From an uncultured Pelagibacteraceae bacterium (GTDB lineage Bacteria; Pseudomonadota; Alphaproteobacteria; Pelagibacterales; Pelagibacteraceae), in contig CACBBR010000003.1 in assembly GCA_902537555.1 (NCBI GenBank), positions 1 to 64,000 of the forward strand: a DNA stretch of 64,000 bases, in the 5' to 3' direction. Positions 2,069 through 16,919 of the stretch are shown here, piece after piece; position 1 is the first letter of the stretch, and every line of letters begins with the position of its first letter. A model generated the notes under the pieces. That model was not told the DNA's origin, did not search any database, and saw only the letters and a list, made by a program, of their open reading frames with translations. Both the position numbers and the translations under genes were made by a program.

Positions 2069-3035
2069 AAGCTTTGAACTAGAAAAGATCAAATCCTCAC
2101 AGGAAAACTTACATTTAATGTATGGAAACAATGAAGGTATAAAGAATGAGATAATAAATGAAGTCTACATTAAAAATTTTGAGGGAGAAGTTTTAAAATA
2201 TGATGAACAAGAAATATTGAATAATAAAGATGAATTTATATCAAACTTGTTAAATAGATCTCTTTTTTTAGAAAGTAAAATTATTATAATCTCAAGATCA
2301 TCGGATAAATTAATTGATATTATAAATGAAATTTTAGATAGAGAAATAATAGATACTAAAATAATTATTAAATGTTCAAACTTAGAAAAAAAATCTAAAC
2401 TTCGAAATTTATTTGAGAAGGGAAATCAACTAATTTGTACTCCAGTTTATGAAGATGATTACAGGGCTCTCAATTCAATCATACAAAAATTTTTAAGAGA
2501 AAATAAATTTAGCCTTTCTCAAGAAATAAAGAACTTGCTTATAGAAAGATCAAAGGGAGACAGAATATTTTTAAAAAGTGAGTTATCTAAATTGAAAAGT
2601 CTTTCACTCAGTAAAAATAAATTGAGCACTGGTGATGTAGTAAAATTAACAAATCTTGCAGAAAATTTCAGTGTTTTTGAATTATCTGATAATTATTTAG
2701 CTAAAAATTCAAAGAAAGTTTCTAACATTCTTAATGAAAATAATTATTCATCTGAGGACTGTATATTAATTCTAAGAACAATATTAAATAAATCTAAAAG
2801 ACTTTTAAAAATAAGGAATGAAATTGATAATAATTCAAACATTGATCAAGTCATTTCAAATTTCAAACCTCCTATATTTTGGAAAGAAAAAGATATTGTA
2901 AAAAAACAAATTCAATCATGGTCGACTAATGAGGTAAAAGGTATAATATATAAAATTAACGAATTAGAAGTCTTAGTAAAAAAAAGTACAGTAAATTCAA
3001 TGCTTTTTGTCTCAAATTTTGTAAGTAATTATTAG
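2058..3035 (+). CDS. holA: DNA polymerase III subunit delta
   Basis: HolA-like N-terminus ('LHLMYGNNEGIKNEIINEV') and context leuS-lptE-holA. Confidence 0.8.
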   Translation: MIIKSFELEKIKSSQENLHLMYGNNEGIKNEIINEVYIKNFEGEVLKYDEQEILNNKDEFISNLLNRSLFLESKIIIISRSSDKLIDIINEILDREIIDTKIIIKCSNLEKKSKLRNLFEKGNQLICTPVYEDDYRALNSIIQKFLRENKFSLSQEIKNLLIERSKGDRIFLKSELSKLKSLSLSKNKLSTGDVVKLTNLAENFSVFELSDNYLAKNSKKVSNILNENNYSSEDCILILRTILNKSKRLLKIRNEIDNNSNIDQVISNFKPPIFWKEKDIVKKQIQSWSTNEVKGIIYKINELEVLVKKSTVNSMLFVSNFVSNY

Positions 3036-3883
3036 TAATTTTGTTTAATAATTTCAACCAATCTATCCAGCTGATCAGCTGCCTTATACTCTAAACTTAT
3101 TATTCCAGAGTTATTCCTTTTATTTTTTACATAAACTCTCATTCCAATTTTATCTGTTAACTCTTTTTCAAGACTTGCAATATTTGGATCTTTTTTCTTT
3201 GAATAATGATTAGAATTAGATTTCAAGATACGCACTAAATTTTCAGCTTGTCTAACTGATAATTTTTTTGAAATAATTTTCTTTGCTAGAGAGATTGCAT
3301 TATCCAACCCAACTAAAATTTTTGCATGTCCTTGGGATAACTTTTCTTCAATTATTAATTCAATAATTTCCTTTGGAAGAGATAAAAGACGCAAACAATT
3401 AGATATATGTGCTCTGCTTTTTCCAATAAATTTTGAAACCTTATCTTGATCATAACTAAATTCATCTATTAATTTTTTATAACCTTCTGCTTCCTCTATT
3501 GGATTTAAATCTTTTCTTTGAACATTTTCAACTATGGCTAATTCTAAAGATTTAAGATTGTCTACATTAATTACAATTACTGGCACCTGGTGAAGACCCG
3601 CATATTGAGCTGCCTGCCATCTTCTTTCGCCAGCTATTATTTCAAATTTATCTTCTTTATCAGAAGATTCTCTAACTATAATTGGTTGAATAATGCCTCT
3701 CTCTCTTATGGAGTTAGTTAATTCTTCTAAACTCACTTCATCAAATTTTTTTCTTGGCTGATATTTATTTCTAACTAACGAACTTATTGGGAGATTTTTC
3801 TTACCATCAATTTTATCACTGTCTCCTATCAAGGACGATAATCCTCTTCCAAGCCCCTTTTTTGATTTAAACGGATTTATCAT
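3032..3883 (-). CDS. parB: Chromosome partitioning protein ParB
   Basis: 'KKGLGRGLSSLIGD', 'NKYQPRKKFD', 'IIAGERRWQAAQYAGL', 'NPIEEAEGYKKL'. Confidence 0.97.
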   Translation of the reverse strand: MINPFKSKKGLGRGLSSLIGDSDKIDGKKNLPISSLVRNKYQPRKKFDEVSLEELTNSIRERGIIQPIIVRESSDKEDKFEIIAGERRWQAAQYAGLHQVPVIVINVDNLKSLELAIVENVQRKDLNPIEEAEGYKKLIDEFSYDQDKVSKFIGKSRAHISNCLRLLSLPKEIIELIIEEKLSQGHAKILVGLDNAISLAKKIISKKLSVRQAENLVRILKSNSNHYSKKKDPNIASLEKELTDKIGMRVYVKNKRNNSGIISLEYKAADQLDRLVEIIKQNY

Positions 3884-4680
3884 GCTGCACTCTCCACTGG
3901 TTTATCTTGATTTAAAAATTCTTCTGTGAAACTAAAATATGCCTTGCTTCCTGGACAAGCCTTATCATAAACAAGAACGGGAACACCATGTGAAGGTGCT
4001 TCTGATAATCTGACATTTCTAGGTATCGCTGAAATATAAACTTTATCCTTAAAATAGTTTCTTGCCTCTATTTCTACCTCACCTGATAATTTGTTTCTCT
4101 TGTCATACATGGTTAGAAGTATTCCTCTTATGTCTAAAGACGGATTTAGGTTTGATTTAATCCTCTCTATAGTTTTCATAAGCTGAGTGAGACCCTCTAA
4201 AGCAAAAAATTCTGTCTGCAGTGGAACCACAAGAGCATCTGAAGCTACCAAAGCCATAATTGTAAGCAGACTCAAGGAAGGAGGACAATCAATTATGATA
4301 TAGTCATAGGAAGGCCCAGAATTGTTTAAAATAGCGGATAATTCATCTTTTAATTTAAAGGCCCTCCTGCTATCTCCAGCTGTCTCCACTTCTAGTCCTG
4401 ACAAATCAACATTAGATGATATCAAATTTAAATTTTCAAAGCTTGTTGATTGTATAACCTCTGAAATTTTTTTACTTCCATTCAATACATTGTAAATTGT
4501 TTCATCTGAACTTGGTGTATTGGACAATCCAAGTCCTGTTGTAGCATTTCCTTGTGGATCAAGATCTATAACAAGAATTTTTTTTCCTTTCATTGTTAAA
4601 CCAGCTGCTAGATTAATGACTGTAGTAGTCTTACCCACTCCACCTTTTTGATTTATTACAGATATAATTTTTTTATTCAT
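3880..4680 (-). CDS. parA: Chromosome partitioning ATPase ParA
   Basis: Deviant Walker A 'NQKGGVGKTTTVINLAAGL', 'LVIDLDPQGNATTGLG', adjacent to parB. Confidence 0.97.
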   Translation of the reverse strand: MNKKIISVINQKGGVGKTTTVINLAAGLTMKGKKILVIDLDPQGNATTGLGLSNTPSSDETIYNVLNGSKKISEVIQSTSFENLNLISSNVDLSGLEVETAGDSRRAFKLKDELSAILNNSGPSYDYIIIDCPPSLSLLTIMALVASDALVVPLQTEFFALEGLTQLMKTIERIKSNLNPSLDIRGILLTMYDKRNKLSGEVEIEARNYFKDKVYISAIPRNVRLSEAPSHGVPVLVYDKACPGSKAYFSFTEEFLNQDKPVESAA

Positions 4681-5317
4681 ATTTTTTTTTCAATTTTGAA
4701 ATTTTTACCACTGATGAATCATTGCTTGTTAGACTTTTCATTTCCTCTATATCAAATTTCCATTTTGTAGAAACTTCTTTTAGAATTTTTTTTCCACTCT
4801 TGCCTAAATACATGACAATGTATTTAAAACTTTTAAAATTTTTTGTTGCAATTTCAAAAATCACAGGCAATGGTTTGAATGCTCTACAAATTATTACATC
4901 TGTTACTAAATTTTTTTCTAGGAAAATATTTTTTTGATAAATTTTTGCATCTAATTTAAACTTTTCTGCCATTTGTTTCACAAAATTACTTTTGTGATAA
5001 CTCTTTTCATAAAAAATCAGCTTAAAACCTTGCTTTTTTGATTTCATCAAAATACCCAAAACTATACTAGGAAGTCCTGCTCCAGAGCCTAAATCAGTAC
5101 ATATGTTAATATCATTTTTATTAATAAAATCAATGGTTTGTGCACTATCGTAAATATGCCTTATATTTATTGATTTTTCTGTAGTTGAACTTATCAAATT
5201 TATTCTCTTATTTGTGCTCAAAATTGAATGTGTATAGTCCTGTAACTCTCTTAATGTTTCACGTGAAACATCATGTAGATAGATCTTATCTTTTTTTATT
5301 ATTTTCGAATCAATCAA
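4673..5317 (-). CDS. rsmG: 16S rRNA (guanine-N7) methyltransferase RsmG (GidB)
   Basis: '[18 protein letters not shown]'; '[11 protein letters not shown]' encoded by parS; adjacent to mnmG. Confidence 0.95.
5255..5270. promoter_or_regulatory. parS: parS centromere-like site (perfect 16-bp palindrome)
   Basis: TGTTTCACGTGAAACA, exact match to bacterial parS consensus, inside rsmG. Confidence 0.96.
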
Positions 5318-7185
5318 GCTATATGCTTAATAGACTTTCTTTTAACATGAGACAACAAAATATATACTGCAGCTGGAGTAATTCCGTCTATTCTCAGCGC
5401 TTGGCCAAGCGTTTTTGGCTTTATTTTTTTAAATTTTGACTTTACTTCATTCGATAATCCAGAGAACTGATCATAATCTATATTTTCCGGAATTTTAAGA
5501 TTTTCATCTCTTTTAAAAGCAAGAATATCTGCATTTTGTTTCTTCAAATAACCTTTATAGTGTGCTTTTATTTCAATTTGCTCGTCAATTTCACGTGAAA
5601 CATATTTAATTTTTGGCCAAATTTCCCTTATCTTACTCATTTTTACAGATTTTTGACTTAGTATTTCTATTGCATTCCTTTTAACACCATCTTTTGCGAT
5701 ATTTATTCCAAATTTTGATGCTTTTGACGGAGAAATAAAGGAATTTTCCATACTTTTGAGACTTTTTTCAAGTTCATATGCTTTTTCTTTATATACAATT
5801 TTTCTCTCATCTAATATTAAGCCAATGTCAATTCCTTTTTGGGTCAGTCGAAGGTCAGCATTATCAGACCTTAAGGATAACCTATATTCTGCTCTTGAAG
5901 TAAACATTCTATAAGGTTCGGCAACTCCTTTTGTAACTAAGTCATCAATCATTACTCCTATATATGCCTCAGACCTATCAAGGATGAATGCCTCTTTGCC
6001 TTTGAAGGAGAGAGCTGCATTAATTCCGGCTATCAAGCCTTGAGCTGCAGCTTCCTCATAACCTGTTGTTCCATTAATTTGACCTGCAAGATAAAAATTT
6101 TTAATTTTTTTTGTTTCTAGTGTTAAATAAAGCTCTCTTGGATCTACAAAATCGTATTCAATGGCATATCCAGGCCTTAATATCTTTACATTTTCTAAAC
6201 CATTGATATTATTACATATTTCTTGCTGCACTTCAGCTGGGAGTGATGTTGAAATTCCATTGGGGTATATAGTTTTATCATTAAGACCTTCTGGCTCTAA
6301 AAAGATCTGATGTTTTTGTTTATCAGCAAACTTTACAATTTTATCCTCGATAGAGGGGCAGTATCTAGGACCAATTCCTTGGATACTTCCTGAGTACATG
6401 GCACTACTTTTTATATTTTTAGAAATAATTTCATGCACTACTTTATTAGTGTAAGTCATCCTGCATGAGATTTGTTTATTAATATTTTTTTTTGTAAGAA
6501 AAGAAAAAAAATATGGATTTGCATCTGCATGCTGTTCTTCAAGTTTTTCAAAATTTATTGTCGTAGCATCAAGCCTTGGAGGGGTTCCTGTTTTTAATCT
6601 TCCAATTTTAAAGTTATATTTTTCTAATTGTTCGCTTAATCCTGTTGAAGGTTTTTCATTAAATCTTCCTGCAGGTGTTTTTTCTTTACCAATGTGAATC
6701 AAACCATTTAAGAAAGTTCCAGTAGTTAAAATTACTTTTGAAGACAGTATTTTTTTCCCTTCTTGTGTTATAAAACCGATTATATTGTTTTTCTCAAATA
6801 TGAATTCAATTACAGGATCTGAAAAAATGCTTAAATTACAGTAGTTTGCAAGTTTTTCTTGCATATATTTTTTATATAGTGATCTATCACTTTGTGTTCT
6901 TGGTCCACGCACTGCTGGACCTCTACTTCTATTCAATAATCTAAATTGTATACCTGATTTATCAGCTACCTCTCCCATTACTCCATCAAGAGCGTCTATC
7001 TCTCGAACTAAATGGCCTTTTCCTAAGCCTCCTATAGCAGGGTTACATGACATTTCACCTATAGTGTCAAATTTGTGAGTAAATAGTGCAGTATTTACTC
7101 CCAATCTAGAGGATGCAGCAGCTGCCTCACACCCAGCATGACCTCCACCAATTACAACTACATCAAATGACATCTCGTTTTTCAT
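5314..7185 (-). CDS. mnmG: tRNA uridine-5-carboxymethylaminomethyl modification enzyme MnmG (GidA)
   Basis: '[22 protein letters not shown]', '[22 protein letters not shown]', '[16 protein letters not shown]'. Confidence 0.98.
5587..5602. promoter_or_regulatory. Second parS-like site (14/16)
   Basis: AATTTCACGTGAAACA inside mnmG; differs from consensus only in first two bases. Confidence 0.75.
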
Positions 7186-13816: not shown

Positions 13817-14809
13817 TTATAAGTTTTTTGTAACTAGATGTTTTAACAATAAAATATGATCCTCACTATCATTCAAACATGGTACCATTTCAAAATTATC
13901 ACCTCCTGATTTGATAAAACTTTCTTTTCCTTGTATCGATATTTCTTCTAAGGTTTCTACACAATCAGATGAAAATCCTGGGCAAATAACCAAAATATTT
14001 TTTTTACCTTCTTTAGGTAGAGTCTCGAAAGTTTTATCTGTGTAAGGTTGCAACCACTCTTGTGGACCAAATCTAGATTGAAAAGTAGTCTTGATTTCAA
14101 TATCTGAATACTGTTCTGAAATCAATCTGGTAGTTTTATGGCAATAACAATGATAAGGATCACCTTTATCAAAATATTTTTTTGGAATTCCATGATAAGA
14201 CGCAATTATTAAATCAGGCTTCCAATTAATTTCACTTATCTTTTTCAAAATACTATTTTTAATCGCCTCAATGTATAATGGTTCAGACTCATAATGAGGT
14301 ATTATTTTAAGATTTGGTTGCCACCTCATTTTCATTAAAGTTCTATAAACTTCATCACAAACTGTTGCTGTTGTTGCGGCAGCATATTGAGGATAAAGTG
14401 GGAGTATAATTAAATTTTCACAACCCTTTTTTTGAAGACCATGAATTTTAGCTTTAATACTTGGATTTCCATATCTCATAGCAAAATCTACAATTAAATC
14501 TTCATTGCTAATTTTATCAGATAGTTTTTCTGCTTGCCTTTCTGTAAAATATCTTAAAGGAGACATATTTTTATCTTCCATCCATATTTCTTTATAAGCT
14601 TTAGCTGTTTTGGAAGGTCTAAAGGTAAGTATAAATAAGTTAAGTATTACTTGCCAAATTAAGGGATTAACTTCAATTACTCGTCTGTCTGACAAGAATT
14701 CTTTTAAATACTTCCTGATATCCAACCAGCTCGTTGAATCAGGTGTACCAAGATTAACAATTAAAATACCTGTTTTGCCATAATTAATTTTTGGATGGTC
14801 TGGTGTCAT
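13817..14809 (-). CDS. hemH: Ferrochelatase
   Basis: 'GILIVNLGTPDS', 'SYHGIPKKYFDKGDPYHCYCHKTTRLI', 'FQSRFGPQEWLQPYTD'. Confidence 0.97.
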   Translation of the reverse strand: MTPDHPKINYGKTGILIVNLGTPDSTSWLDIRKYLKEFLSDRRVIEVNPLIWQVILNLFILTFRPSKTAKAYKEIWMEDKNMSPLRYFTERQAEKLSDKISNEDLIVDFAMRYGNPSIKAKIHGLQKKGCENLIILPLYPQYAAATTATVCDEVYRTLMKMRWQPNLKIIPHYESEPLYIEAIKNSILKKISEINWKPDLIIASYHGIPKKYFDKGDPYHCYCHKTTRLISEQYSDIEIKTTFQSRFGPQEWLQPYTDKTFETLPKEGKKNILVICPGFSSDCVETLEEISIQGKESFIKSGGDNFEMVPCLNDSEDHILLLKHLVTKNL

Positions 14810-15807
14810 TTAAAATTTCTTACAATCTTGATTAGTTCCTCAACCATTTCAATTTTAGTCTCAGGAAGTATTCCGTGACCTAAATTAAAAATGTATGGGT
14901 GGTCTTTAAAAACACCAAGATATTTTTCAACTTCTACTTTAAGGGTTTTTTGATCAGTTAGTAATATTTTTGGATCAAGACCGCCTTGTATTGGTATTTT
15001 GATTTCATTTACTATTTTCTTTGGGTCAACATCGTAATCTATGTTAACAGCGTCTGGTTTTACAATTTCACAAAAATTTTTATAATCTTTAATACCTCTT
15101 GGAAAACAAATAACAGGAACTCCCAGTTTTTTTATATAATCTACAATATTAAGGGTAGGTACATAAATATATTCTGGGATTTTATCTTGTAATAATCCAG
15201 CCCAACTATCAAAAATTTGAATAACTTGAGCTCCGGCCTCAATTTGATTTTTTATATGAAGTTTTAAGAATTTCTCTATTATTCCTAGTAATCTATTAAT
15301 TAAAAAATCATCTTTAAAGAATTCACCCGATAAACCTTTTTTAGGAGAAGATTTATTAATCATGTAAACTAGTATTGTCCAAGGAGCTCCAACAAATCCA
15401 ATCATATCCCTATTGCTCATTAAAGGGTCTTTAGACGTTTTTTCGATTGCTTTATAAACTTTATAAATTTTTTCAGTAAAACTTACTTCATCGACATTTT
15501 TTATTCTTTCTAGATCTATATCTCCTAATTTGGGTCCAAAATTTTTTTCAAATTCTACTTTTTGACCAAGACCATAGGGTAACATTAAAATATCTGAAAA
15601 TATTACAGCTCCGTCAAATCCAAATCTTTTAATAGGTTGAAGAGTAATTTCTGATGCCAAATCGCTATTTAGACAAAGTCTGATAAAGTCTTGGTTTTCT
15701 TTTCTAATTTCTCTAAATTCTGGAAGATATCTTCCTGCTTGTCTCATTAACCATATAGGATTTGACTTAGTATCTTTATTTTTAATACAGTTAGTTAAGG
15801 GACTCAT
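14806..15807 (-). CDS. hemE: Uroporphyrinogen decarboxylase
   Basis: 'PIWLMRQAGRYLPEFREIR', 'FSDILMLPYGLGQ', 'FNLGHGILPET'. Confidence 0.97.
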   Translation of the reverse strand: MSPLTNCIKNKDTKSNPIWLMRQAGRYLPEFREIRKENQDFIRLCLNSDLASEITLQPIKRFGFDGAVIFSDILMLPYGLGQKVEFEKNFGPKLGDIDLERIKNVDEVSFTEKIYKVYKAIEKTSKDPLMSNRDMIGFVGAPWTILVYMINKSSPKKGLSGEFFKDDFLINRLLGIIEKFLKLHIKNQIEAGAQVIQIFDSWAGLLQDKIPEYIYVPTLNIVDYIKKLGVPVICFPRGIKDYKNFCEIVKPDAVNIDYDVDPKKIVNEIKIPIQGGLDPKILLTDQKTLKVEVEKYLGVFKDHPYIFNLGHGILPETKIEMVEELIKIVRNFK

Positions 15808-16091
15808 ATAAATAGATATATATTATTTACTTTATTAGTATTATGTATTGTGAATAACGTAAATTAGTCAATTTCCACACTTAATTAACTAATTATCAAC
15901 AATTTTTATCTTAAATAAATAAGATAATTAAGGGATAATTTAATAATCTTTATATTTTATATACAATTTGAATAACTATGATCTAAATTTATAATTCAGT
16001 TAATTTTATATGAAAAATACTAACTTCTATTAGTTCAAAGAATAAATCTGCATTTTTCTTATTTTACTAATAGTTTATAAACATCTTATAC
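15808..16091. other. Putative chromosomal replication origin (oriC), hemE-ppsR intergenic region
   Basis: 284 bp AT-rich non-coding divergent gap; DnaA-box match TTATTCACA (reverse strand, 15849-15857), near-box TTATCAACA (15893-15901), weaker TTATTCAAA (reverse, 15967-15975); same flanking genes as Caulobacter Cori (hemE and the DUF299 gene). Confidence 0.68.
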
Positions 16092-16919
16092 ATGAGAAAC
16101 TTATACCAAATTTACTTAATATCTGATTCTACTGGAGAGACACTGGATAGGATTTTTTTGGCGTTAAAGGCTCAATTTCCTAATTTTGAGTATGAAACTA
16201 ATCACTTTTCTTTTACTCGTACTGAAAGTCAAACTTTGAGTATATTAAAACAAGCTAAGAAAGATGAAAATTCTATAATTCTATATACAATAGTTAATAG
16301 TAAGCTTGCAAAGTATCTTGTAGAAAAAGCTTATGAGAGAGAAATACCATGTTTTGGTGTTCTAGGAGATTTAATATTAAATTTTTCAAAAGTTCTTAAC
16401 CAAAAAGCTTCGCATCAACCGAGCGGTCAACACATTTTAAATGAAGAATACTACGATAGAATTGAAGCTATTCAATTTACTATGAATCATGATGATGGTA
16501 ATCAAACTGATGATATAGAAAAATCCGATATCATTCTGCTAGGAGTAAGCAGGACAAGTAAAACTCCAACAGCCATTTATTTAGCTAATAGAGGTTTTAA
16601 AACTTCAAATATCCCATTAGTAAATAAAAATTCAATTCCGTCAAAGGTTACAGAAAAAAATTTTTCTCCCTGTGTTGTCGGTTTAGTGACTGAAGCTGAG
16701 AGATTATATGATTTAAGAAAAAATAGATTAAACTCTCTTAAAGAAGATCAAAATAGTGAGTACGTAAATATAGATAAAATTAGGGATGAATTAAATAGTT
16801 CTAAAAAAATATTTAAAGAAAATAATTGGCCTACAATAGATGTAACTAGAAAATCAGTTGAAGAAACAGCAGCATCTGTAATTAAAATTTATGAAATTAA
16901 AAATAAAAAAAATGCCTAA
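16092..16919 (+). CDS. ppsR: Pyruvate, phosphate dikinase regulatory protein (DUF299 family kinase/pyrophosphorylase)
   Basis: 'IYLISDSTGETLDRI', 'LLGVSRTSKTPTAIYLANRGFKTSNIPLV'. Confidence 0.95.
   Translation: MRNLYQIYLISDSTGETLDRIFLALKAQFPNFEYETNHFSFTRTESQTLSILKQAKKDENSIILYTIVNSKLAKYLVEKAYEREIPCFGVLGDLILNFSKVLNQKASHQPSGQHILNEEYYDRIEAIQFTMNHDDGNQTDDIEKSDIILLGVSRTSKTPTAIYLANRGFKTSNIPLVNKNSIPSKVTEKNFSPCVVGLVTEAERLYDLRKNRLNSLKEDQNSEYVNIDKIRDELNSSKKIFKENNWPTIDVTRKSVEETAASVIKIYEIKNKKNA

Follow-up and report, generated by a model that had tools for sequence, protein, structure and literature searches.

The hemE–ppsR intergenic gap as the very probable chromosomal replication origin of a SAR11 bacterium

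Gene arrangement at the hemE–ppsR gap

The window analyzed here, a stretch of 64,000 nucleotides (bases 1–64000 of contig C3), belongs to a draft genome of 1.11 Mb in 32 contigs that is 85% complete. The nearest named genomes are those of uncultured Pelagibacteraceae (single cells and MAGs), which places the window in SAR11. The intergenic gap between hemE and ppsR, 284 bp long, is the longest internal ORF-free stretch of the window; the runner-up measures 218 bp, and a 1183-bp ORF-free stretch at the edge probably represents a reading frame truncated where the window ends. A preliminary description, made from the sequence of the window, had presented this gap as the largest non-coding one, placed at the divergence point of a minus-strand and a plus-strand gene block. 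Both statements agree with our annotation: rho, hemJ (UPF0093), hemH and hemE are encoded on the minus strand, and ppsR, maf, aroE, coaE and a dnaQ-like gene on the plus strand. The gap contains 16% G+C (0.162) vs 0.22–0.36 in 2-kb windows, and its A+T content is thus above average. The pair of flanking genes typical of hemE-type origins, hemE and COG1806/DUF299, is present in the window, as it is in 18 of the 20 other genomes that were checked.

A perfect parS sequence and a second copy with two mismatches lie on the hemE side of the gap, together with parA and parB (Table 1). In the related genome G031 the gap and the equivalent parS sites are 6.9 and 7.3 kb apart, and in the related genome G140 9.4 kb.

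Table 1 Features of the candidate origin and its surroundings in the window; all DnaA boxes and trios are predictions.
Feature	Position	Strand	Remarks
parB and parA	3032–4680	-	PF02195/PF17762 and PF13614
Perfect parS	5255–5270	.	TGTTTCACGTGAAACA; inside rsmG, 10.6 kb from gap
Second parS copy	5587–5602		2 mismatches
hemE (uroporphyrinogen decarboxylase), left flank	14806–15807	-	PF01208, E 3.4e-82
Candidate origin	15808–16091	.	Whole hemE–ppsR gap; length kept in relatives
Candidate DnaA-trios	15833–15844	+	5'-TAT TAG TAT TAT-3'; 3-nt periodicity, columns nearly invariant in 79 genomes
DnaA box 1, R1-like	15849–15857	-	TTATTCACA; adjoins trio run
Invariant ACGTAAATTA	15857–15866	.	10/10 columns invariant, 78 relatives; adjoins box 1
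DnaA box, lattice +22	15871–15879	+	ATTTCCACA; mean match 6.14/8
Degenerate DnaA box, lattice +33	15882–15890	+	TAATTAACT; mean match 6.14/8
DnaA box, lattice +44	15893–15901	+	TTATCAACA; mean match 6.00/8
Reverse DnaA-box position	15967–15975	-	TTATTCAAA in window
DnaA box just upstream of ppsR start	16075–16083	+	TTATAAACA; recognisable in most genera
ppsR / DUF299 (kinase-pyrophosphorylase), right flank	16092–16919	+	PF03618, E 1.1e-86

Two further features of the neighborhood were recorded. A polysaccharide-lyase-like gene (PF14099; 17493–18491, plus strand), omitted from the preliminary description, separates maf from aroE; a homologue is found in just 9 of 81 loci, and maf directly adjoins aroE in G031 and G140. 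Between mnmE and rho, near the candidate origin, four tandem paralogous sulfotransferase-like genes (PF00685; 8640–12053, plus strand) are encoded on the strand opposite to the minus-strand genes around them.

The flanking genes were also sought in further genomes. PF03618 (ppsR) was detected in none of the 12 genomes of a sister family (f2, G001–G012), 11 of which include hemE; in both genomes of this family that were checked, hemE is located ~10 kb from parB. The right-hand neighbor of an origin in this family would differ from ppsR. Neither hemE nor ppsR was found in four drafts of the same genus (G049, G080, G095 and G119), from whose assemblies the origin region may be absent.

DnaA boxes, trinucleotide run and conserved core

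Three DnaA-like words had been noted in the gap, and all were found at the places given for them (15849–15857, 15893–15901 and 15967–15975). The accompanying remark on a small number of boxes proved to be an undercount, as six box positions are recognisable and those at 15871, 15882 and 16075 had been missed. In relatives, box 1 reads TTATTCACA, TTATCCACA, TTATTAACA or TAATTCACA. The reverse box at 15967–15975 reads TTATTAACA, TTATTCACA or TTATCCACA in several of them, and its spacing to the ppsR-side box differs in some.

We aligned 28 diverse gaps on box 1 and searched for forward boxes at offsets of +9 to +89. Forward box-like words were found at +22, +33 and +44 only (mean match 6.0–6.1 of 8), the best offset outside these positions reaching 3.96. 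Counted from the reverse box 1, they form a lattice with a period of 11 bp, in which the +44 position has 7 or 8 of 8 matched in 15 of the 28 genomes. In some other genera the lattice becomes indistinct.

Counts of boxes were compared with chance expectation. In 64 kb, 4.2 exact TTATNCACA words are expected and TTATTCACA is the only one present, so that the bare count of TTATNCACA proves nothing; nor was TTWTNCACA, at one mismatch, in excess over the whole window (260 found, 275 expected). TTATN[AC]ACA, the form that boxes take in this family, was picked after seeing the alignment; it occurs exactly three times in the window's gap (0.17 expected), a count reached by none of 200 shuffles. Over 27 family gaps it occurs 75 times vs 4.7 expected; these gaps are kin, so that the 75 boxes are not independent events. 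The gap is the densest 300-bp cluster of boxes in the window and in the covered parts of G140 (76%) and G017 (34%), but not in G031. DnaA boxes beyond chance, as looked for in a hemE-type origin, are thus present in the gap.

An 11-bp period is also that of CtrA-type sites (TTAA-N7-TTAA), and the gap could be the origin with a lattice that consists of such sites and not of DnaA boxes. The motif is indeed frequent in related gaps (77 in 99 gaps vs 21 in shuffles), but the window's gap includes none, and in many genomes the lattice positions carry DnaA-box letters without TTAA (e.g. TTATCAACA, TTATAAACA and TTTTTCACA). Moreover, two TTATTAACA boxes spaced 11 bp apart yield TTAA-N7-TTAA automatically, and ctrA is reported absent in Pelagibacter (PMC2877005). 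We consider it very improbable that the lattice consists of CtrA sites and read its positions as predicted DnaA boxes.

Between box 1 and hemE, beginning 4 nt from the box, lies a candidate trio run that reads 3'-TAT-TAT-GAT-TAT-5' away from it. The published DnaA-trio consensus is 3'-GAT-5' beside a DnaA box, and we understand the structural work to place its 3' end nearest the box (PMC6669920, PMC10721633); polarity was compared against PMC10721633 and PMC8235120. Trio centers were scored as T on the strand continuing box 1 at offsets 6, 9, 12, 15 and 18, and across 24 distinct sequences T was found at 86 of 120 such centers (permutation maximum 56). The run of one relative, G013, is 3'-GAT-TAT-GAT-GAT-TAT-GAA-5'. 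A DnaA box next to which trinucleotide repeats run in the correct polarity, one element of a basal unwinding system, is therefore present with degenerate repeats, several of the trios being 3'-TAT-5' and not 3'-GAT-5'. The spacer between box 1 and the trios is not GC-rich, and the sole possible second co-oriented box is the degenerate GTAAATTA/GGTAATTA stretch.

The gap is 282–288 bp long in 78 relatives, with hemE identity down to ~63%, and 258–291 bp long in 18 further Pelagibacteraceae. Within it, 22 of the 34 columns of a core (15834–15867) are invariant in the 78 relatives, while the flanking genes have no invariant site among 78 fourfold synonymous ones (mean major-base frequency ~0.6). 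Judged from this comparison of columns, the core is under purifying selection. The middle of the gap (15904–16060) is more variable (mean 0.74), and conservation climbs to 0.93 at the ppsR start, where 11 of 22 columns (16070–16091) are invariant. Alignment of the gap across relatives had been suggested as a check on the origin; it revealed that box 1, the forward boxes and the ppsR-side box hold their positions within the genus, and several of them are recognisable in other genera.

The most strictly conserved element, ACGTAAATTA, is single-copy in the window and includes no match to the DnaA-box consensus; its counterparts in other subclades are GGTAATTA and GGTGATTA. It is possibly a second degenerate box or the site of another protein. 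Of 155 genomes of the order, 11 contain a single copy of an 18-bp core, TGTGNATNACGTAAATTA, always just upstream of ppsR; diverged cores, e.g. TGTGAATAATGGTAATTA, were found in other genomes.

Replichore boundary and distance to dnaA

Skew inside the window mostly tracks gene direction and was left out of the boundary test. The test was carried out in three relatives: the single-contig G140 (1,308,759 bp; 76% covered), G031, which was covered completely, and G017, which belongs to another genus (34% covered). Skew at fourfold sites was fitted with two boundaries, sign-free, at 5-kb resolution. The sign-free fit was adopted because the fourfold GC skew of G031 has the reverse sign; a fit that forced a G-rich leading strand placed the G031 origin opposite the gap and was dropped for this reason. 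On the G031 chromosome (L117–L185) the leading-strand fourfold GC skew is opposite in sign to that of G140, and the T-A skew has the same sign in both.

Of the 262 grid positions in G140 the gap fits best, and it is also the best gene-orientation boundary there; a boundary at dnaA, 64 kb off, is worse by dLR 58.6. In G031, the gap (604.8 kb) falls within the support interval of 590–640 kb (dLR 1.2) and the gene-orientation boundary lies at 605 kb; the raw cumulative GC minimum is found at 636.6 kb, 31.8 kb from the gap, and TA4 alone is slightly against the gap (dLR 5.1). The skew of G017 is too weak for boundary placement, and its combined fit disfavors the gap (dLR 6.1). The replichore boundary looked for at a hemE-type origin was thus located in relatives, with the gap as its best position in G140 and within support in G031. 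Whole-genome skew, which the preliminary description had named as a check, accordingly places the switch at the gap in G140 and accommodates the gap in G031 despite the displaced raw minimum.

In all nine relatives checked, dnaA is found ~60–71 kb from the gap. Seven of them have dnaA to the hemE side; G017 and G021 have it to the ppsR side, a switch that looks like an inversion centered on the origin.

In many bacteria the origin adjoins dnaA, and the origin of SAR11 could likewise lie there, 60–71 kb off, with the gap as an ancestral remnant. The nearly constant distance between dnaA and the gap in the nine relatives implies that dnaA too is near the origin, the G031 GC minimum falls between the two sites, and an Arctic SAR11 study begins its whole-genome alignments at DnaA (PMC12421898). 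However, the dnaA site is rejected by the G140 skew, and the gap is favored over dnaA in G031 and G017 as well, if weakly (2.9 and 2.1); no notable DnaA-box cluster is present at dnaA, and an invariant core is not expected of a remnant. We regard an origin at dnaA as very unlikely.

Scans of the gap with Rfam detected no RNA family match, and promoter and terminator scans of the gap returned nothing. DnaA can regulate genes, hemE and ppsR diverge from the gap and the core lies 27–60 bp upstream of the hemE start, yet a purely regulatory role of the conserved block as the promoter region of hemE and/or ppsR, with DnaA as a transcription factor and no origin function, is hardly credible, as promoter-like matches are at the shuffle mean (5 vs 5.1) and this reading leaves the replichore switch, the trio run and the 11-bp lattice unexplained. 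The gap may additionally be a promoter.

Proposed initiation mechanism and comparison with known origins

We conclude that chromosome replication in this SAR11 bacterium very probably starts in the hemE–ppsR gap, which would be an origin of the hemE/DUF299 type as in Caulobacter and Rickettsia. The preliminary description had proposed an origin here, and the skew switch of G140 at the gap and the conserved box positions support it. Location, conservation, box lattice, 3-nt periodicity with its polarity, and replichore boundary were all obtained by computation.

For DnaA binding, the place of melting and the order of events, work on Bacillus and Helicobacter suggests the following model. DnaA would bind box 1 together with the forward boxes at 15871, 15882 and 15893, phased at 11 bp. 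A DnaA-ATP filament would then grow leftwards from box 1 onto the trinucleotide run, a step that, taken alone, we consider likely. The filament would open the A+T-rich DNA towards hemE and create the entry site for the helicase. A looping or regulatory part would fall to the boxes at 15967 and 16075, and ParB, bound at parS ~10 kb away, would segregate the new origins.

A more specific design can be proposed only tentatively. The SAR11 origin would be a streamlined one without CtrA control, in which the R1-like box stands between degenerate trios and a three-step 11-bp lattice, and the invariant ACGTAAATTA between them is bound in an unusual manner by DnaA or by an undescribed SAR11 initiation factor. 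If true, this streamlined CtrA-free layout with ACGTAAATTA would be a compact origin design new to the Alphaproteobacteria.

CtrA is the usual alphaproteobacterial brake on initiation; for a lineage that reportedly does without it, the gap provides an origin that can be tested. An origin defined at base level also means that estimates relying on its position can be anchored and not fitted. Since dnaA is often used as the start point of chromosomes, starting SAR11 chromosomes there puts the start 60–70 kb off. Our literature search for a published SAR11 origin retrieved indirect statements only and no base-level description. The map of HTCC1062 carries an oriC marked as manually identified (PMC4033161), and the location of the SAR11 origin may therefore not be new.

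The site between hemE and DUF299 is the experimentally established origin in Caulobacter (PMC1914354). Cori of Caulobacter crescentus and the origin of Rickettsia prowazekii have the same pair of flanking genes and an A+T-rich gap with several DnaA boxes (PMC1914354). These origins include CtrA sites, whereas the window's gap is without a CtrA motif, in line with the report that Pelagibacter has no ctrA (PMC2877005). Its predicted forward boxes are also spaced regularly at 11 bp and face a single reverse box. Some Wolbachia origins are also reported to be without CtrA sites (PMC1914354); CtrA control is a lineage feature that is not needed for a hemE-type origin. The IHF consensus was found 0 times in the window's gap and 7 times in 99 gaps vs 9 expected, degenerate sites being possible, and HU/IHF-family genes number three per genome.

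The basal unwinding system (BUS) of Bacillus subtilis and oriC2 of Helicobacter pylori share with the SAR11 gap a DnaA box, a spacer of 3–4 nt and trinucleotide repeats of 3'-GAT-5' polarity that lead away from the box into A+T-rich DNA. The SAR11 gap departs from both in its degenerate candidate trios, which include TAT as well as GAT, in a spacer that is not rich in G+C, in the orientation of the next clear boxes, which face box 1 and are not co-oriented with it, and in the distance of dnaA (60–70 kb).

In oriC of Escherichia coli, the R1 box is oriented towards the unwinding element and the arrayed boxes are 2 bp apart, which gives an 11-bp period. The SAR11 gap resembles it in having an R1-like box oriented to the presumed unwinding side and an 11-bp box array, but differs in that the lattice has only three positions, that 13 bp and not an IHF-sized gap separate the R1-like box from the array, and that the gap includes a single GATC.
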